Part shown: in pieces, positions 1 through 8,343 of the stretch
Layout of the letters: every line of letters begins with the position of its first letter
Numbering within the stretch: the first letter of the stretch is position 1
NCBI GenBank assembly: GCA_002686955.1
Contig: NYZA01000231.1
Span: 1-8,343, forward strand
Length of the DNA: 8,343 nt
From: Gemmatimonadota bacterium
GTDB taxonomy: Bacteria > GCA-2686955
Reading direction: 5' to 3'
Notes under the pieces: generated by a model
Told to the model about the DNA's origin: nothing
The model's input: the letters and a program-made list of their open reading frames with translations, nothing else
The model's database searches: none
Translations under genes and position numbers: made by a program

Positions 1-1014
1 CGCCTCGTCGACCCCGGGGCCGAACATCTGGCGCAAGTACGGCCTCGGTGCCCACCGCGGCGGGATGTAGTAGGCGTTCGGTTGCGTTCCGAGCTGCGGA
101 TAGAGCGGCAAGGCGACCTTCGCGACGTGCACCATGTAGTAGAGTGGGTGTTGTCGGTCCTCGACCCAGGTACCGTTCTCGCCGATCTCAACCAGGCCCT
201 GCAGTCGAATCTGACCGATACAGGAAGCCATGCAGCGCGTCTCCATCGGTCGACCGTCCCCCTCGGGGTCTTTTCCCTCGACGCGAGGGTAGCAAGCGAT
301 GCATTTTTCCGTCGTTCGCGTGTTGCCACGATAGATGCTCTTCTTGTAGGGGCAGGCTTCGACACATTTTCGGTAGCCACGGCACTGCTCCTGATCGATC
401 AGAACGATGCCGTCCTCCGGCCGCTTGTAGATCGCCTTTCGAGGACATGCGGCGAGGCATGCTGGATAGCTGCAGTGGTTGCAGATTCGCGCGAGGTAAT
501 AGAACCAAGTCTTGTGCACCGGTAGCTCGGCACCCTCTGCATGCAGCTCGCCGCGCTTCCCCGGCGGCCCCACGGGGTTGTCTTCCCAGATGTTCGGCAG
601 GTTCCACTCTTCGTCGGTGGGCAAGTAGCCGAGCGCTCGCGCGCTCTCCGGCTTCAACTCGGAGCTCGCCTCGAAGATCGTCTTCCCTTCATAAGTGCCG
701 TATGGGCCGGCCTCCGAAGGACCCGCCCCCCATACCTGCCCGCCCGGATTCGCGTCTTCGAGCATCTGCAGGATCTTCATGTCCCACGATTGAGGGTAGC
801 CGCCGTACGGCTTCGTCTCGACGTTCGCCCACCACATATGCTCCTGACCCTTGTTGAAGGTCCATGTGGATTTGCAGGCCATGGTGCAGGTCTGGCATGC
901 GAGGCAACGGTTGATGTTGAAAACGAAGGCGAACTGTCGTTTTGGGTATGCGCCTCGATAGGGGTACGACATCTTGCGACCGAGATGCCAGTTGTGCACG
1001 CTCTCGTTTGCCAT
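1..1014 (-). CDS. nxrB: NXR/NAR-type iron-sulfur (beta) subunit, 3' end cut by window
   Basis: Four-cluster Fe-S electron-transfer subunit of a type II DMSO-reductase-family enzyme. It passes electrons between the catalytic subunit and the heme subunit. The frame is open for 338 codons from the ATG at 1014 to the window edge. The family is usually about 430 residues, so roughly the last 90 are missing. Cysteine groups seen: C37-x2-C40-x2-C43-x3-C47; C178, C181, C186, C190; C211-x5-C217-x3-C221; C238, C241; C261, C265. In the third group the usual second Cys is Tyr214 (CRGYRKC). NarH has Trp there and binds a 3Fe-4S cluster, so one 3Fe-4S plus three 4Fe-4S is expected. Stretches such as NINRCLACQTC, AACPRKAIYKRPEDGIVLID and YYIPPR match remembered Nitrospira NxrB. 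There is no signal peptide; it is probably carried across by the Tat signal of the alpha subunit. The start is fixed by AAGGAG five bases upstream, overlapping the end of the preceding small gene. Confidence 0.9.
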   Translation of the reverse strand, partial: MANESVHNWHLGRKMSYPYRGAYPKRQFAFVFNINRCLACQTCTMACKSTWTFNKGQEHMWWANVETKPYGGYPQSWDMKILQMLEDANPGGQVWGAGPSEAGPYGTYEGKTIFEASSELKPESARALGYLPTDEEWNLPNIWEDNPVGPPGKRGELHAEGAELPVHKTWFYYLARICNHCSYPACLAACPRKAIYKRPEDGIVLIDQEQCRGYRKCVEACPYKKSIYRGNTRTTEKCIACYPRVEGKDPEGDGRPMETRCMASCIGQIRLQGLVEIGENGTWVEDRQHPLYYMVHVAKVALPLYPQLGTQPNAYYIPPRWAPRPYLRQMFGPGVDEA

Positions 1015-1016
1015 GA

Positions 1017-1340
1017 CTACTCCTTTTCGGCGCCGCTCTCGGAACGCCTGGAACCAAGGGGTTGTGCATCTCGCACGACGAAATGAACCCGACCCAAGGC
1101 TTGAACACATTCCTCGACGATCCGCAACACTTCCGTGTCGCCGAGGACCTTGTATGCACCGTGCGCCCCTGCGTAGTGAGGCCTGCGGAACAGGGCCATG
1201 ATGCTCTCCGCGTCATGCCCCATCCCGGCGAACTCCTCGGCGAAGGCCCATGCCATATCGGTCATCGAATCTCGCCCGACGTCGACCTGGACGCCCACCA
1301 ACGACATCGGATCGGTCGGGTCAGGATCATGGAAAGGCAT
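1017..1340 (-). CDS. Small unrecognised protein encoded between alpha and beta subunits
   Basis: 107 residues, family not recognised. The start ATG follows the alpha-subunit stop after one base, with GAAGG about seven bases upstream inside the end of that gene. Its stop lies two bases before the beta-subunit start, and the beta-subunit ribosome binding site overlaps its 3' end, so the gene is embedded and probably translationally coupled. The protein looks soluble, with no signal peptide or membrane segment. The N-terminus is Asp/Pro-rich. The middle (about residues 24-85) appears mostly helical, with a run of aromatic and acidic residues (MAWAFAEEF, residues 29-37) and the motif ALFRRPHYAGAHGAY (49-63). 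The tail is charged and Ser/Glu-rich. There is a single Cys (78). The position suggests a subunit-specific assembly factor or small accessory subunit. It does not look like a full TorD/NarJ chaperone, which is about twice as long. Function is inference only; that it is a real gene is well supported by its spacing. Confidence 0.75.
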   Translation of the reverse strand: MPFHDPDPTDPMSLVGVQVDVGRDSMTDMAWAFAEEFAGMGHDAESIMALFRRPHYAGAHGAYKVLGDTEVLRIVEECVQALGRVHFVVRDAQPLGSRRSESGAEKE

Positions 1341-1341
1341 A

Positions 1342-4300
1342 TCAGGCCTTCTTCACTTTCACGAGATCACCGAGGAGGTAGCGCTGCATGAACTCGCTCT
1401 CGTTGTCGGGTGTAAACCCCGTGGTGGCCGGCTTCCAACGGCCTTTGCCGCCCATACCACCGTCCTCCGCCTTGGTGATGCGCACCAAGGTCTCTTTCGG
1501 CACAGTATTGATGGCATGATTGTCCGCCTCCCCTCCGAACATGAAAGCCATGAAGACCTTCTTCTTGTGGAATAGGGAGTCGGTTTGGTGCATCGGCATG
1601 TGCCAGTTGCGCGTGATCGACTGTTGCGATCCGTAGCGCAGGTTGGCCTGGTAGCCGGTGTTCGCCGAGAGCGCACGGCCGTCGGGGCGGGTCTCGTGCG
1701 CTTTTACGCTCTTCTCCGTCGCGATATATGGTGCGTGTTTCATCATGACGATGCCGTAGGGATAGGCACGGTTGTACTTCACGCGGAGCATGCACCGTGA
1801 GACACGGTAGAAGGGGTCGCTCGGATTCGCGCCGATATAGGGCCTGTCGGCGGGATTGGCATCGATATAGACGTAGTCGCCGTCGTTGATCTTCATATCC
1901 TCCGCCGCTTGCGGGTTGATATGAAGCTGGTGTTCACCGACACATGGTGCTCGCCGGTCCAGACGGTACGGATCGCCGAAGTTTGAATCGTAGAGCATGT
2001 GCCAATCGACGTTCGACCACCCGCTGTGCACCCTGTGGCGCGTCTTCGGCGTCAAGCAGAAGAACTGGTACCCCTTTTTCCACAAGAAGTTCTCGGTCTT
2101 GAGGACCTCTTCCCAGGGCATTTTGATGTTGCGGATGGTGCGATCGTCCCAGTGCTCGGCGTCGGCCGGAATGCCGTAGTCGTCGGGCCGAATATAGGGA
2201 TTGGCGCTCACGATCACGTTCGGCAGGAACGGTGTGGCCTCCGGTCCTTCTCGATGCACGATGAAGTTCTCGCCGTAATCGATCGCCTCGTCGATGTCCG
2301 AATAGGCGTGCATCCGTCCCGTATCGGTGTGGAAGGGAATGCTGTCGTGTACTTGTTCGTAGAAAGGCACGCGCGGGTAGGTGCGGAAGAGCAGCAGAGC
2401 GCCGCCTGGAGGGCCGTACTTCCCGGCCATGATCTTGTCGAGATCGTAGCCGCGTGTTGTGGTGCAACTATCCAGGAGGCGCTGCACATAGACGCCGCGT
2501 TTCTCCGCGCTCGCGAATGCGAAGTGGTCTTTGTAGCGTGTGTCGTCGGTGGCATCTCCGAGCGCCCGCGCGATCCCAGCCAGGATGTCGAGATCATCCC
2601 GGCTGTCGAATATCGGAGGCACGCCGCCTTTCCAGATTTGGAGGAAGGGGTTGGAGCAGCTCGCCGTGACCTCCAGCCCCTCGAACTCGAGCCAACTGTT
2701 GGCCGGTAGCGCCAGATCCGAGTACTCGATACTGGCGGTCATCTGAATGTCTAGCGACACCAACATCTCGATCTTCGGGTTCACGTTCTTGATCATTTCG
2801 TACGCGTGCTTGGCGTTGTTGATCAAGTTGACGTTGTTGAAGATGATTGCCTTCGTTGGCGTCGGCATATGGGTTTCGCCCGTGAAGTTCTTCCGTCCGT
2901 ACTTCGGTGTATCGACGATGAGCGCCTTGTCGCCGTGATTCCAGTAGGCAGGCTCCTCGTCCTTGCAGGTCATCCGTGTTTTGATGTCTTTTCCGTCAAC
3001 GGTCGGATCGAGATTGGGCGCGAAAGGATCTTCACCGATCCACCCCTTGAACCCAGGTCCGGTCCAGGGTGATCCCTGGAAAATCGCCGCCTTGTAATTG
3101 CCTGCCCAGGTCTGAGATCCGGCGCCACGCTCGCCGATGTTTCCGGTCAACATCAGCGGCAGATACGAGGCTCGGTTCATCTCGGTGGCGTGGAACCAGT
3201 GGTTGATGCCCTCGCCCTGGTGAATCGCAACCGGCTTGATGGTCGCGATGTCCTCCGCCAACCGCAGAATCATCTCTTTGGGCGAGTTGGTGATCGCCGT
3301 CACGGTGTCGATATCGTAATCGGCCAAGTGGACCTTGTAGAGGCTCCAAAGTGTCGCGACCTGGATCGTCGAGCCATCCGCGAGCTGCAGCTCGAACTCT
3401 CCGTCCAGTGCGGGATCGATGCCGGCGCCGGTCATGGCGTCGCCGACCTGATCCCGGTTCATGGCCTTCGGGGAGTCGGTCCCAAGGTCCCAGCACACAT
3501 AGTCGCCGAGCTTTTCGTGCTGTTCGGTCTTGAAGCCCTGGATGCGCATCGAGGGCCCGTCTTTGGCGAGCGAGCTCTTGTAGTCGGCGAACAGCTCGTG
3601 TGCACGCAGTCTCTTCAGGTTGTCCTTTCTGACCAGGAGCGGAAAGTCGGTGAAGCGTTTGACGAAAGGTTCGTCGTACCAGCCGCGCTCCATCATGATC
3701 CGCGTGATGCAGAGGAAAAGCGCTGTGTCGGTCTGGGGGCGGATCGGAATCCAGTAATCCGCCTTGGTCGCCGGAGGACTGTACTCCGGTGCGATCACGA
3801 CGATCTTCGCTCCCCGTTCCATGCACTCGATGAACCAGTGGGAGTCCGGTAGCTTGTTCTCCACCAGGTTCTTGCCGTCCATGATGATCAGCTTGGAGGA
3901 ACGCAGATCGTTGAAGTCGCAGTCCGAGGTCTGCAGGCCGTGCACCCAGGGATGGCCGGGAGCCTGATCGCCGTGCCAGGTGTAGTTCGACCAGTTGCGC
4001 CCGCCCCTGGCCTGGTCCGGCGAAACTCCTCGGACCTTGGAGTCGAGTAGCGAGAGGGTGTTGTTGAGGCGGTACATACCGTACTTGCCGATGACGCCGA
4101 GCAGCCCCATGCCGCCACGCATCTTCACCGCGCGGGTGCCGGCTCCACCCATCGACTCGACCATCTCGGGCTGGTAGCCCTGATCGATGAGCCTCCTCTT
4201 CCCCGCAGCTCCGCTGTAGCGCTCCGCGATGCTGACCAGACATCCGGCGATCGCTCGAAATGCGTCGTCCCAGGAGATCTGGACGAACTCGTCCTCGCCT

Positions 4301-4788
4301 CTCTTCGTGAAATAGTAACGATCACGGAGCTCTGCAGTCAGCTCCGGGAACCCGGCATCGGCCCATGCCTTCCAACCCTTGCGCACGATCGGGTGGCGGA
4401 GCCGGTAGGGGCCGTACAGGACCCGGTGAAATGTGTAGCCTTTGGCACACTGCCGCGGGTTCCAGTTGACCGTGGCGTTGTTGCCGTAGGTGTCGGCGTA
4501 GGTCTGGTAGTCGTAGGTGGACCCCAGTCGGGTCACGATGCCGTTGCGCACGTAGGCGCGCACCCTACAGGCGTGGGTATCGTTCGGTGAGCAGACCCAA
4601 TCGAAGGTACTGTCGTAGCGGTACTGGTCGCGGTAGATCTGCTCCCAGTCAGTCTCGACCGCTCCAGCCAGAGGGTTCTGGTCTGGATCCGCCGCCGCGA
4701 GGACGCGCATGGGAAATGCGAGCCCAGTAACACCCGCGGAGGTTCCGACTCCGAACCATTGAAGGAAGGTACGCCTTGAGATGGCCAT
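1342..4788 (-). CDS. nxrA: Nitrite oxidoreductase/nitrate reductase-type molybdopterin catalytic (alpha) subunit
   Basis: Catalytic subunit of a type II DMSO-reductase-family enzyme with Mo-bis-MGD, probably interconverting nitrite and nitrate in the periplasm. The product is 1148-1149 residues, the usual NxrA length. Positions here count from the first ATG (4791). A twin-arginine signal SRRTFLQW (5-12) precedes a hydrophobic stretch and a cleavage region near LAAAD (31-35). The FS0 cluster ligands appear as C67-x3-D71-x3-C75-x39-C115; NarG has His/Cys/Cys/Cys. D275 in YTWHGD aligns with the NarG Mo-ligand Asp. RPQTDTALFL (351-360) and the QTWAGNYKAAIFQG region are typical of the family. The C-terminal molybdopterin-dinucleotide-binding domain covers roughly residues 950-1120. 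Two ATGs are adjacent; GAGGAG lies three bases before the first and six before the second, so the second (4788) is the likelier start. The stop is one base before the small gene. Perchlorate, selenate and ethylbenzene enzymes share the fold, but the motifs and the Nitrospira-like partner favour NXR. Reaction direction cannot be read from sequence. Confidence 0.88.
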   Translation of the reverse strand: MAISRRTFLQWFGVGTSAGVTGLAFPMRVLAAADPDQNPLAGAVETDWEQIYRDQYRYDSTFDWVCSPNDTHACRVRAYVRNGIVTRLGSTYDYQTYADTYGNNATVNWNPRQCAKGYTFHRVLYGPYRLRHPIVRKGWKAWADAGFPELTAELRDRYYFTKRGEDEFVQISWDDAFRAIAGCLVSIAERYSGAAGKRRLIDQGYQPEMVESMGGAGTRAVKMRGGMGLLGVIGKYGMYRLNNTLSLLDSKVRGVSPDQARGGRNWSNYTWHGDQAPGHPWVHGLQTSDCDFNDLRSSKLIIMDGKNLVENKLPDSHWFIECMERGAKIVVIAPEYSPPATKADYWIPIRPQTDTALFLCITRIMMERGWYDEPFVKRFTDFPLLVRKDNLKRLRAHELFADYKSSLAKDGPSMRIQGFKTEQHEKLGDYVCWDLGTDSPKAMNRDQVGDAMTGAGIDPALDGEFELQLADGSTIQVATLWSLYKVHLADYDIDTVTAITNSPKEMILRLAEDIATIKPVAIHQGEGINHWFHATEMNRASYLPLMLTGNIGERGAGSQTWAGNYKAAIFQGSPWTGPGFKGWIGEDPFAPNLDPTVDGKDIKTRMTCKDEEPAYWNHGDKALIVDTPKYGRKNFTGETHMPTPTKAIIFNNVNLINNAKHAYEMIKNVNPKIEMLVSLDIQMTASIEYSDLALPANSWLEFEGLEVTASCSNPFLQIWKGGVPPIFDSRDDLDILAGIARALGDATDDTRYKDHFAFASAEKRGVYVQRLLDSCTTTRGYDLDKIMAGKYGPPGGALLLFRTYPRVPFYEQVHDSIPFHTDTGRMHAYSDIDEAIDYGENFIVHREGPEATPFLPNVIVSANPYIRPDDYGIPADAEHWDDRTIRNIKMPWEEVLKTENFLWKKGYQFFCLTPKTRHRVHSGWSNVDWHMLYDSNFGDPYRLDRRAPCVGEHQLHINPQAAEDMKINDGDYVYIDANPADRPYIGANPSDPFYRVSRCMLRVKYNRAYPYGIVMMKHAPYIATEKSVKAHETRPDGRALSANTGYQANLRYGSQQSITRNWHMPMHQTDSLFHKKKVFMAFMFGGEADNHAINTVPKETLVRITKAEDGGMGGKGRWKPATTGFTPDNESEFMQRYLLGDLVKVKKA

Positions 4789-4794
4789 CATGGG

Positions 4795-4800
4795 CTCCTC
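4795..4800 (-). promoter_or_regulatory. Ribosome binding site for the catalytic subunit
   Basis: GAGGAG on the minus strand, followed by CCC and two consecutive ATG codons. Spacing is three bases to the first ATG and six to the second, which favours initiation at the second (4788). It lies in the 15-base gap after the stop of the heme subunit gene. Confidence 0.65.
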
Positions 4801-4806
4801 TAGTGG

Positions 4807-6426
4807 CTATTCGGCGAGGACGAAGTCCTGCCAGATCGTCACGGATTTCTTGCCGTCTCGGTCCCCCGCCGATCCGTTCCAGATCGCAAACGCCGCGGGG
4901 ACCTTTCGGCCGGGCTTCAGGTCCACTGCTTCCCTGCCCTTCCCCTTGAGCTCTCGGCGCAGCACGACTCGGTACGACCCGGTCTTGTAGACACCGGATG
5001 CCTCGACGGCCTGGTCCGCCATGGGGCGCGCCTTGAGCGTGCCGAAACCCTGTGCGCGCAGATCCTCCGCCGCGCTCCGGAGTGTGGGATCGGCAACGAT
5101 ATTTCCGGCTCCCCAGGCAGTGATGAAGGTGGCGTCGGCCTCGAGGGTCGCGGCGTGGCGCATCGGTTGCTCGTAGGGCGAGCGTTGGAGATTCGGGTAC
5201 GAGTCGATGCCGGTGTTGGGGTACTGGGTGTCGATGTCGTGGAAGCCCGCCAGGTCGGCCTGGCGATCCGACTTCCACATCCAGATATTGACGAAGTCGC
5301 CTTTGGTCCCCATGGCGAAGAAGGGGGGATCCTGCGTGGTAGCGAACTGCACCGCGGCCGCGTCCCGAAAATCTTGTGGCCTCACCGCCATTTCGTCGTG
5401 CGTTTCATCGGCCCATGCCAGGAGGATCGCCATGCTCTTTCCGTCGTGGGCGGCCTGGACCTTCACATACTCCGGTCGGCTGTAGCGCCACCAGAGCGGC
5501 ATGAGATGCAGCGTTGCGCCGGGTATGTCTCGCCAGGCGCCCGCATCCGGATGGTCCGGGAGCGTCTCGACTCGGGAACAGAGAAGCTCGATCCTTCTCA
5601 TCTCGGCTCGCTCGCGCAACTCGTCGCTCGAAAGCGAGCGCACGAAGTGGACGAGATCCCAGGCGTCGTCCCCGATCAAGTGGGGATGCGCCGGCATCGG
5701 TGTATCTGCGATGCCGCCGACAATCCGCCGGTAGATGCTCGCCGGGGACGGATCGCCTTTGAAAACGCCTGTCGTCAGGTCGCGCGGGCGGATCGGATAG
5801 CCCGATGCGTCCTCGAGTGTCTCGACCCGCGGACCATCGCCCTGACCGAAAGGTCCATGACACGATTCGCAATTCTGCGCGAAGTGCACGGCCCCCCGCG
5901 CGCGGCCCTCCCGTGTATCGGCCGGCTCGCGCGGAGCCTCGATAACCCCTTCCCCATCGTCGCCCTCTTCGAGATCGGGCGCTTTGCTGGGGGGAACCAA
6001 CAGCGGCCTCTTCGAAAGCGACTTTATGTAGTGGACCAGCGCCCACCGATCACTCTCCGGCAGATGTGCCCAGGAAGGCATGGCCGATCCAGGCATCCCC
6101 CGCGTAATTGTCGCGTACAGATCCTGATCGGTCGGCGTAGCGTCCCACGTCGATGTGATGCGGTAGCTCCCTCGTCGCAGATCGCGCGGTTTGGGGTAGA
6201 GGAGGTACGCAGCCTCCCCATCACCGCTGCCGTCGGATCCATGGCACGCCAAGCACTTGAGCGTGTAGAGCTCGGCGCCGCGCTGCAGGAGCGTTTTCGA
6301 CGGCGACCGAGGAGTGGGCGAAGCCAGGGCCGGCGCGGTCGCCAGCGCCACTGCGAGGAACCAGCCTTGGGCGCTCATGAACGGCGAAAGGGGCGTTCCA
6401 CTGTGATCCGCTCTGCAATCTGCCAT
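4807..6426 (-). CDS. nxrC: Diheme c plus heme b electron-transfer (gamma) subunit, NxrC/EbdC-like fusion
   Basis: Periplasmic heme subunit that would carry electrons between the Fe-S subunit and a soluble or membrane acceptor. It is 539 residues from the start chosen here. A hydrophobic segment (about 21-36, ending PALA-S) looks like a Sec signal peptide. The first cytochrome c domain has C58-L-A-C61-H62, with Met111 or Met116 (GMPGSAMP) as the likely sixth ligand. An acidic, low-complexity linker (about 150-175) leads to a second c domain with C186-E-S-C189-H190 and Met244 (DTPMP). Residues about 300-535 match the ethylbenzene-dehydrogenase gamma/heme b domain. NIWMWKSD carries Lys385, the expected axial Lys of heme b; Met309 is a tentative partner. 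An upstream ATG at 6516 gives 30 more residues but has no ribosome site. The ATG at 6426 has GGAGG eight bases before it. A third ATG (6378) would give a cleaner signal peptide but lacks a ribosome site. The stop lies 15 bases before the catalytic gene's first ATG. Confidence 0.87.
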   Translation of the reverse strand: MADCRADHSGTPLSPFMSAQGWFLAVALATAPALASPTPRSPSKTLLQRGAELYTLKCLACHGSDGSGDGEAAYLLYPKPRDLRRGSYRITSTWDATPTDQDLYATITRGMPGSAMPSWAHLPESDRWALVHYIKSLSKRPLLVPPSKAPDLEEGDDGEGVIEAPREPADTREGRARGAVHFAQNCESCHGPFGQGDGPRVETLEDASGYPIRPRDLTTGVFKGDPSPASIYRRIVGGIADTPMPAHPHLIGDDAWDLVHFVRSLSSDELRERAEMRRIELLCSRVETLPDHPDAGAWRDIPGATLHLMPLWWRYSRPEYVKVQAAHDGKSMAILLAWADETHDEMAVRPQDFRDAAAVQFATTQDPPFFAMGTKGDFVNIWMWKSDRQADLAGFHDIDTQYPNTGIDSYPNLQRSPYEQPMRHAATLEADATFITAWGAGNIVADPTLRSAAEDLRAQGFGTLKARPMADQAVEASGVYKTGSYRVVLRRELKGKGREAVDLKPGRKVPAAFAIWNGSAGDRDGKKSVTIWQDFVLAE

Positions 6427-6539: not shown

Positions 6540-7193
6540 CTACCCGACGACGTCGTTCTCAATCGCGAAACGGATGAGCTCGGCCGTGGACGAGAGCTCG
6601 AGCTTGCTCATCAGCCGGGTGCGATAAGTAGACGCGGTGCTCGGGCTGATGTTCAGAGACTCCGATGTTTGGCGCAGACTCATCCCGGAGCCCAGGAGGC
6701 GCAGAAGCTCGAATTCGCGGGCGGACAGAGCCTCCACACCTACGCGGTCTCGCCGTGGCCGCCGGAGTGAGTGGATCACTTTGTGCGAAACCTGCGGGGT
6801 CACGTAGACCTCATCTCGCCGAACCGATCGGATCGCCTCCAGCAGCTCTTCGACGGCGCTAGACTTGATGACATATCCGTGAGCGCCGGCCTCCAGCACG
6901 CGCACCGCATAATGGATGCTCTCATGGACGGTGAGAACGATGATCCGAGTCCGGGAGCGACTCCGCACGACCTGCTCGATCACCGGGAGCGCACCGCCAC
7001 CGGGGATGCTGTAATCGAGGACCAGCACATCCGGCTTCTGACTCACCAGGGTGGACAAGGCTCGAGGACTGTCGCCGGCCTGGCCCACGACCTCGATCCA
7101 CCCACAGCTGCACAGAAGCGTCGAAAGCGCCTCGCGCACTAGCGTGTGATCGTCCACGAGGACGACACGGACCTTCGGACGTTTGGCGGTCAC
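6540..7193 (-). CDS. NarL/FixJ-family response regulator
   Basis: 217-residue DNA-binding response regulator, the usual length for the NarL/FixJ/LuxR group. The receiver domain (about 8-122) has the acidic pair D14-D15, phospho-acceptor D60 in VLVLDYSIPGGG, T88 and K110 (GYVIK). A LuxR-type helix-turn-helix follows (about 156-213, starting LSAREFELLRLL, recognition helix near SPSTASTYRTRL). All phosphorylation-switch residues are present, so it should respond to the kinase encoded just upstream. It starts at a GTG that overlaps the kinase stop by four bases (GTGA), with GGAGG about ten bases upstream, indicating translational coupling. The enzyme genes begin 113 bases downstream on the same strand, so they are the most likely target. 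The family resemblance to NarL fits a nitrogen-oxide enzyme, but family membership alone does not show that the signal is nitrate or nitrite. Confidence 0.93.
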   Translation of the reverse strand: MTAKRPKVRVVLVDDHTLVREALSTLLCSCGWIEVVGQAGDSPRALSTLVSQKPDVLVLDYSIPGGGALPVIEQVVRSRSRTRIIVLTVHESIHYAVRVLEAGAHGYVIKSSAVEELLEAIRSVRRDEVYVTPQVSHKVIHSLRRPRRDRVGVEALSAREFELLRLLGSGMSLRQTSESLNISPSTASTYRTRLMSKLELSSTAELIRFAIENDVVG

Positions 7194-8343
7194 GAGAGGT
7201 GTTCCTCCGGGCCGAAGCCCCGCTCGAGTGGAACGCTCAAGCTGATCCGCGTGCCCTCCCCCGGAGTGGAGTGCAAAACTAGCTCCCCTCCCATGAGTTC
7301 CGCCCGCTCCCTCATGCCCAGCAGTCCAAAGCGATCCGACTCGGTCGCCCGCGGGTCGAATCCCTCGCCATCGTCGGCGATCTCCACGATCACGCGGTCC
7401 TCCGAGGCAACCATCGAGAGCGTGATGGATTCCGACCCAGCGTGTTTGGCGGCGTTGGTGAGGCCTTCCTGCACGATTCGATAGACCGATTCGCTCACCT
7501 TCGGAGGGATCGGGTGGGAGCTCGGATCGAGCCGAAGCTCCAGAGCGATTCCTGTGGTTCTCTCGAAATCCCTAGCATAGCTTCGAATCGCCTCCAGCAG
7601 CCCGAGGTCGTCCAGGATCGTCGGCCGCAGGCGCGCTACGACGCCGTGCAGCTCCTGGAGCAGGAGCGAGGCAGCCTTCTCTGCTCGCCGAATGTGGCCA
7701 GCCGTGCTCTCGGGAGCCGCTTTGGCCGCGCCGCGGAGCTCGATGGTGATGGCGGTTACGAGCTGCCCAAGCTCGTCGTGCAGGTCCCGGGATATGCTCC
7801 TTCGCTCCTGCTCCTGGAGGGAGAAGAGCCGCTCCGAGAGAGATCGCAGGCGACGTTCAGAGTCCACGATGGCCTTCCGCTGCCGCCGGCGCGCCTCGCG
7901 CGCGTGGGCCAAATAGGCGGAGAGGACGAAAAGCGGGATCGAGGCAGCCCCACCGACCCACAAGAGCCGTTCGAAAAGGCGATTCGCACCCTTCCGAGAC
8001 TCCTCTGCAGGAACTTGCGACACGATTCTGAGGGCGTTCTGGCCCTCGCCGATGGCGGCGAAAGAGAAGATTCCGTTCCGCGTCTGGATCTGGCCGCTGC
8101 GTTGAGCGGAGATGCGGGCCCACGCTTCCGGATGGTCCACTCGAAAGCTGAGATCGGTGCGGCCGAAGAGGAACCCCCACCTGCGCTCGGGCGGCACCCC
8201 GCTCAGATAGGAGCCGGACGCATTCAGCAACATCGTCGGTCCGGGGGCGCGCAGACCGAGCTCGGTCAGCTCGTCCAAGAGCTGCGCGCCGTCGAGACTC
8301 AGGACCAGCACTCCCCGTTTCGCGCCCTGAACATCGGTCACCG
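7190..8343 (-). CDS. Sensor histidine kinase (HisKA_3/NarX-type core), 5' end cut by window
   Basis: Membrane sensor kinase; the C-terminal 384 codons are visible. The frame stays open to the window edge, and the GTG at 8341 is only the first whole codon, so the true start probably lies outside. Residues about 1-122 (counting from 8341) look like an extracytoplasmic sensor region of Cache-like type (GSYLSGVPPERRWGFLF, then HPEAWARI). One membrane segment follows (about 126-145), then a short charged helical linker with no visible HAMP or PAS domain. The HisKA_3 dimerisation domain has phospho-acceptor His188 in SRDLHDELGQL. The HATPase domain has N296 (LTNAAKH), DDGEGFD (323-329) and GLLGMRERAELMGG (339-352). 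All catalytic boxes are intact. The C-terminal stop overlaps the regulator start. The ligand is unknown; the NarX signature region, if present, would lie in the missing N-terminal part. Confidence 0.9.
   Translation of the reverse strand, partial: VTDVQGAKRGVLVLSLDGAQLLDELTELGLRAPGPTMLLNASGSYLSGVPPERRWGFLFGRTDLSFRVDHPEAWARISAQRSGQIQTRNGIFSFAAIGEGQNALRIVSQVPAEESRKGANRLFERLLWVGGAASIPLFVLSAYLAHAREARRRQRKAIVDSERRLRSLSERLFSLQEQERRSISRDLHDELGQLVTAITIELRGAAKAAPESTAGHIRRAEKAASLLLQELHGVVARLRPTILDDLGLLEAIRSYARDFERTTGIALELRLDPSSHPIPPKVSESVYRIVQEGLTNAAKHAGSESITLSMVASEDRVIVEIADDGEGFDPRATESDRFGLLGMRERAELMGGELVLHSTPGEGTRISLSVPLERGFGPEEHLS

Follow-up and report, generated by a model that had tools for sequence, protein, structure and literature searches.

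The window analysed in this study is the whole of contig NYZA01000231.1 (C231; 8343 bp) from a 4.28-Mb draft genome of a Gemmatimonadota bacterium (assembly GCA_002686955.1; 84.5% complete, 270 contigs), and it carries what is by sequence a genuine nitrite oxidoreductase (NXR) operon, with an attached two-component system. All genes of the window lie on the minus strand, in the order kinase, regulator, gamma, alpha, a 107-aa open reading frame (ORF), and beta. The sensor histidine kinase (HisKA_3/HATPase_c, 7190–8341), whose 5' part lies beyond the contig edge, retains the last part of a periplasmic sensor domain (PF21623), and its stop codon shares a 4-bp overlap with the gene of a NarL/GerE-type response regulator (6540–7193). 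Downstream are an nxrC-like gamma gene (4807–6426), encoding an export signal, a di-haem cytochrome c region and an EB_dh haem-b domain; an nxrA-like alpha gene (1342–4791), encoding a 1149-aa molybdopterin protein of the type II dimethyl sulfoxide (DMSO)-reductase family; the gene of a 107-aa protein belonging to a conserved small helical family located between nxrA and nxrB (1017–1340); and an nxrB-like beta gene (1–1014), which runs off the contig after the first 338 of about 420 residues (~80%). A search of the rest of the draft genome did not find the remaining beta C-terminus. As the gaps between these four genes are 15, 1, and 2 bp, gamma to beta form one tight operon. The distance from the end of the regulator gene to gamma is 23–161 bp, depending on the gamma start chosen; position 6426 is favoured by a GGAGG about 8 nt upstream, and the alternatives are 6516 and 6378. 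Neither a promoter nor a terminator matched consensus in this gap, which is a weak test, so the regulator pair is likely cotranscribed with gamma and the genes that follow. No RNA element in the window reached an Rfam threshold. A preliminary description of this DNA, made from the letters alone, had read it as an NXR-type operon of gamma-alpha-small ORF-beta order with complete gamma and alpha genes, most of beta and its own linked two-component system, and the present analysis agrees with it on all these points.

The alpha protein aligns at full length with NXR-A of Kuenenia stuttgartiensis (PDB 7b04), with 63% identity and 1756 bits over 1145 residues, a match that excludes chance resemblance. 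The next-best solved relatives, namely a perchlorate-reductase-type enzyme (the best, 214 bits), ethylbenzene dehydrogenase, and NarG, reach at most 214 bits, and alpha also fails the curated narG model, scoring 162 bits where 1084 are required. Asp275 (3967–3969) and Asn70 (4582–4584), which were assigned in the Kuenenia structure as the molybdenum ligand and a substrate-coordinating residue (PMC8387239), are invariant across 104 aligned alpha sequences; these two residues alone cannot separate NXR from nitrate reductase (NAR), because NarG has homologous residues, and the NXR assignment is based on overall similarity and the tree. In the alpha tree of 104 rows, the window sequence falls within a 25-row clade (SH-aLRT 100) made up of uncultured bacteria only, with hosts in Acidobacteriota, Rokubacteria/Methylomirabilota, Latescibacterota, and others, while Kuenenia and Nitrospira-like genomes fall outside it. 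The label Nitrospira-like is itself inferred, in that one such genome has two nxrA genes, NirK and an ATP-citrate-lyase match but no COX1 match. Comparing alpha with families acting on other substrates, a check suggested in the preliminary description, places it nearest to NxrA and not to NarG, PcrA or EbdA. The wording "Nitrospira/Nitrospina-like" of that description was imprecise, since identity is 63% to Kuenenia and about 57% to the Nitrospira-like genomes and the clade has no cultivated member. In addition, a twin-arginine (Tat) export motif, SRRTFLQ, can be read directly at residues 5–11 (4759–4779), indicating periplasmic orientation. By sequence, the operon therefore encodes a periplasmic NXR of the Nitrospira/Kuenenia (type II) kind.

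The beta fragment matches NXR-B with 489 bits, and its cysteine groups at residues 37–47, 178–190, 211–221, 238–241, and 261–265 align with those of NXR-B, so that the part present carries the motifs of four Fe-S clusters. The gamma protein consists of two regions. Its N-terminus resembles a di-haem cytochrome of Kuenenia (PDB 6h5l, 139 bits) and contains two CxxCH motifs, CLACH (6241–6255) and CESCH (5857–5871), while its C-terminal EB_dh haem-b domain matches NXR-C with 90 bits. According to the alignment with Kuenenia NXR-C, gamma Met402 (5311–5313) and Lys557 (4846–4848), both numbered from the 6516 start, correspond to the haem-b ligands Met155 and Lys305. Exactly two CxxCH motifs are found in 72 of the 77 long gamma homologues. 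A cytochrome c region joined to a haem-b domain was also reported for the "alternative NxrC" proteins of Nitrospina (PMC3578206), and it is these that the window gamma resembles, not the NxrC of the Nitrospina operon. The gamma proteins of several relatives (L010, L011, L016, L017, L019, L020) begin with a lipobox-like signal, which is not seen in the window gamma, and in some relatives gamma may be a lipoprotein that anchors the complex. Elsewhere in the host genome (L116 on contig C151, 2–1855), a multihaem cytochrome region is fused to another di-haem domain, which shares 60% identity with the N-terminus of the window gamma.

Scanning GTDB genomes gave 343 stretches that encode relatives, the best 80 of which were kept for comparison. 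Of the resulting 81 operons (the window and its 80 closest relatives), 72 have the gamma-alpha-small-beta order, which spans about ten phyla, with hosts in Acidobacteriota, Rokubacteria/Methylomirabilota, Latescibacterota, Neomarinimicrobiota, Hydrogenedentota, Omnitrophota, Planctomycetota, Verrucomicrobiota, Sumerlaeota, and others. Being routine, this order gives no evidence for a special module, and the earlier suggestion that a gamma-first arrangement marks a separate one is not supported. In the window's clade, beta is usually followed by a TorD-like chaperone and a protein of about 340 aa without known family. In Kuenenia, Nitrospira, and Nitrospina, NXR is likewise accompanied by a TorD-like chaperone, together with a putative zinc-finger protein (PMC3578206). 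The small family between nxrA and nxrB (~80–140 aa) is present in most relatives, and an alignment of 71 sequences (A2) has D10, P11, E36, and G67 as invariant residues; no member was detected when two candidate anammox genomes (Anammoxibacter) and the Nitrospira-like genomes were examined. The 107-aa protein of the window is predicted to form four helices (pLDDT 87). A known fold was rejected for it after comparisons with Foldseek (no match at E < 0.001), PDB profiles (no convincing match), and VIA-align (Z ≤ 6.8), and no known protein family matched. The small protein may act in assembly or be an additional subunit.

Only the sensor/regulator pair makes the locus unusual, as no homologous pair occurs near nxr in any of the 80 relatives. 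Among the 76 relatives with gamma ahead of alpha, 60 have at least 2 kb of sequence upstream of gamma. About 19 relatives carry an Rrf2-family regulator upstream of gamma in the same direction (including L009, L010, L018, L021, L029, L034, L039, L049, L066, and L084). The only full-length relative of the window kinase among 18 genomes is in Acidobacteria bacterium UBA2161 (42% identity), where the adjacent regulator is 51% identical to the window regulator and the pair lies away from nxr, on another contig. The related pair in G391 (L194 on contig C39, 6666–9073) has a membrane protein of 665 aa and two long exported proteins as neighbours.

The host genome supplies further context for the enzyme. 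Contig C120 encodes a haem-copper terminal oxidase of the COX1 family (450 bits), which is probably A-type and cytochrome c-using, and a distant COX1-family protein is encoded on C93. On contig C188, narGHJI is found beside dedicated regulators and a gene for cytochrome c. Since this separate NarG is above the curated cut-off (1470 versus 1084 bits) and accompanied by NarHJI, nitrate respiration has its own enzyme in this host. In that nar cluster (L115, 65–11107), the cytochrome c gene precedes narGHJI, and a CxxCH cytochrome and a Mo/FeS fusion protein follow; the cluster resembles an unassigned one in Fig. 6 of PMC10732223, here in another phylum. The genome survey proposed in the preliminary description thus turned up an oxidase and narGHJI, but neither RuBisCO nor ATP-citrate lyase, and neither NirK, NirS, nor NrfA, was found in the 84.5% complete genome. 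Among three other genomes with closely related operons, the RuBisCO match was strong in one and weak in another, and it therefore appears, in this small sample, that autotrophy is not a fixed companion of the 25-row NXR clade.

On balance, we lean towards a periplasmic type II NXR which performs oxygen-linked nitrite oxidation in the host, most likely as a supplement to heterotrophic growth. In this scheme, the Tat system would export alpha with beta as a passenger, and nitrite would be oxidised to nitrate in the periplasm at the molybdenum site of alpha ligated by Asp275. The Fe-S clusters of alpha and beta would carry the electrons to the haem b of gamma (Met402/Lys557), from where they would reach the two c-type haems of gamma itself, a soluble cytochrome c and finally the A-type cytochrome oxidase. 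Haem b of the Kuenenia enzyme must pass its electrons to another binding partner (PMC8387239), whereas the window gamma holds candidate partner haems within the same chain. The kinase/regulator pair would set expression upon a periplasmic signal, and the host would use the operon as an oxygen-linked energy supplement while growing on organic carbon. The subunit identities, the ligand residues, the operon layout, the clade, and the presence of the oxidase and the separate narGHJI are observed, and the lack of a detected NirK, NirS, or NrfA to consume nitrite from nitrate reduction also speaks for nitrite oxidation; the catalytic direction, the electron acceptor, heterotrophy, and the role of the regulators are inferred. 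Several points weigh on the other side. Direction is not fixable from sequence, NXR is reversible, and the clade has no cultivated or assayed member. All absences are weak in a genome that is 84.5% complete and in 270 contigs, and the Wood-Ljungdahl and reductive glycine routes of autotrophy lay outside the search. Moreover, beta is incomplete, and the contig could be mis-binned, given that the nearest relatives of its NxrB and kinase are in an Acidobacterium.

NXR can catalyse the reaction in either direction, so the window enzyme may also reduce nitrate. It was further considered whether it acts chiefly as a nitrate reductase in the periplasm, fed by cytochrome c under O2 limitation, with the two-component system serving to switch it on under anaerobic or nitrate conditions. 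This appears rather unlikely. Kuenenia NXR oxidises nitrite but also reduces nitrate (PMC8387239), related enzymes of Beggiatoa and Hydrogenobaculum have been described as nitrate reductases, and a NarL-type regulator would suit nitrate/nitrite control. However, narGHJI with its own regulator pair is already present, the search found no dissimilatory nitrite reductase, a high-potential haem chain would presumably be a poor donor for nitrate, and the kinase has no recognised NarX/NarQ sensor, its remaining sensor part matching PF21623.

The phylogeny bears on both the origin of the operon and the placement of the contig. Host RpoB was placed among Latescibacterota, Gemmatimonadota, and Neomarinimicrobiota (FCB group) and is 85% identical to that of G001, its only family relative, the host phylum consisting of just two genomes in the set compared. 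Branching of alpha inside the 25-row clade is not resolved; a single clade for the alphas of FCB hosts was rejected (AU p = 0.012), and grouping with Latescibacterota/Gemmatimonadota alone was not (p = 0.175). In the beta tree, the window NxrB nests among Acidobacteriota (UBA2161 and relatives, support 97/91), and no nxrA was found in the sister genome G001. Accordingly, as the preliminary description had thought possible, the operon has likely moved between phyla. Alternatively, the contig could be a piece of an Acidobacteriota genome placed in the wrong bin; the Acidobacteriota signal of beta and the kinase makes this a serious alternative, though one that we consider improbable. The grouping of NxrB with UBA2161 and its kin, the UBA2161 kinase as the only full-length relative, the sister genome without a detected nxrA, and a tetranucleotide fit of the window (0.905) just under that of the other pieces of the host genome (0.909–0.960) would suit such an error. 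On the other hand, alpha does not join Acidobacteriota, judged by codon usage, the host ranks first as the origin of the whole window, of gamma, and of the regulators and ties for alpha, and the tetranucleotide correlation with the host mean exceeds that of the relatives' loci (≤0.88) and of the sister genome (0.892); this composition evidence is supportive but not decisive, because binning itself usually uses composition. It is very improbable that the enzyme, though related to NXR, acts chiefly on a different substrate such as chlorate, selenate, or a hydrocarbon, like other type II DMSO-reductase enzymes: this family is catalytically broad and gamma has a haem-b domain of the ethylbenzene/chlorate/selenate type, but alpha scores 1756 bits to NXR-A, far above the perchlorate-reductase-type enzyme, ethylbenzene dehydrogenase, and NarG, and the active-site residues examined are those of NXR.

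The host lineage is not a recognised nitrite oxidiser, in line with the preliminary description, which had raised this as a possibility. NXR has already been reported in Planctomycetota (PMC10732223) and Rokubacteria (PMC5712423), and no report for the host lineage was found in the literature searched, a search of limited reach. Tentatively, a phylum of the FCB group without a recognised nitrite oxidiser might hold working, non-autotrophic ones, which would have acquired a tri-haem NXR from another phylum, with a two-component system replacing the Rrf2-type regulator that is frequent in the family. With the window, a sparsely sampled phylum joins the bacteria carrying genuine NXR, within a large NXR branch that extends over many uncultured phyla on one plan, namely tri-haem gamma, alpha, small helical protein, beta, and chaperone. 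Whether these hosts oxidise nitrite bears on the question of which organisms make nitrate in soil and groundwater, and work on NXR assembly could target the small conserved protein encoded between nxrA and nxrB.

Compared with known systems, the window shares with the NXR-ABC of Kuenenia stuttgartiensis the similarity of alpha, Asp275/Asn70, the Met/Lys haem-b ligands, and an Fe-S beta (PDB 7b04; PMC8387239), but the gamma of Kuenenia has the haem-b domain only and its gene comes after beta; the tubule subunit NXR-T and the anammox genes were outside the comparison made here. Nitrospina gracilis also has a periplasmic Tat alpha, and its alternative NxrC proteins combine one to three cytochrome c sites with a haem-b domain, whereas its operon has the order A-B-C with a haem-b-only gamma and the alternative NxrC genes lie apart from it (PMC3578206). 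The putative NXRs of Planctomycetota metagenome-assembled genomes from the Oslofjord tunnel (PMC10732223) and of Rokubacteria (PMC5712423) belong to the same wider NXR branch; the alpha tree includes Rokubacteria and several OFTM genomes, which have the window's gene order. They differ in host phylum, and in many relatives the regulator is of the Rrf2 type where the window has a two-component system. Acidobacteria bacterium UBA2161 (L014) has the highest alpha identity (79%), the nearest beta, the same order, and the related kinase/regulator pair, which, unlike that of the window, is not beside nxr.

Plasmid carriage of the operon was considered and rejected, homologues being found only on four haloarchaeal plasmids (31–37% identical). 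Codon bias was also discarded as a sign of high expression, as NxrB ranks 8th and NxrA 13th of 86 genes and the differences are too small. Imperfect palindromic repeats of about 180 bp are dispersed in the host genome (L116 5800–5979, L157 3699–3877, L182 2382–2556 and 5020–5100; contigs C151, C93, and C100), but they were unusable as a binning check, the window having no copy. Finally, rpoB on host contig C126 (16,227 bp) is split over both ends (11–2989 and 15465–16157), a pattern that circularisation of the contig by the assembler would give.

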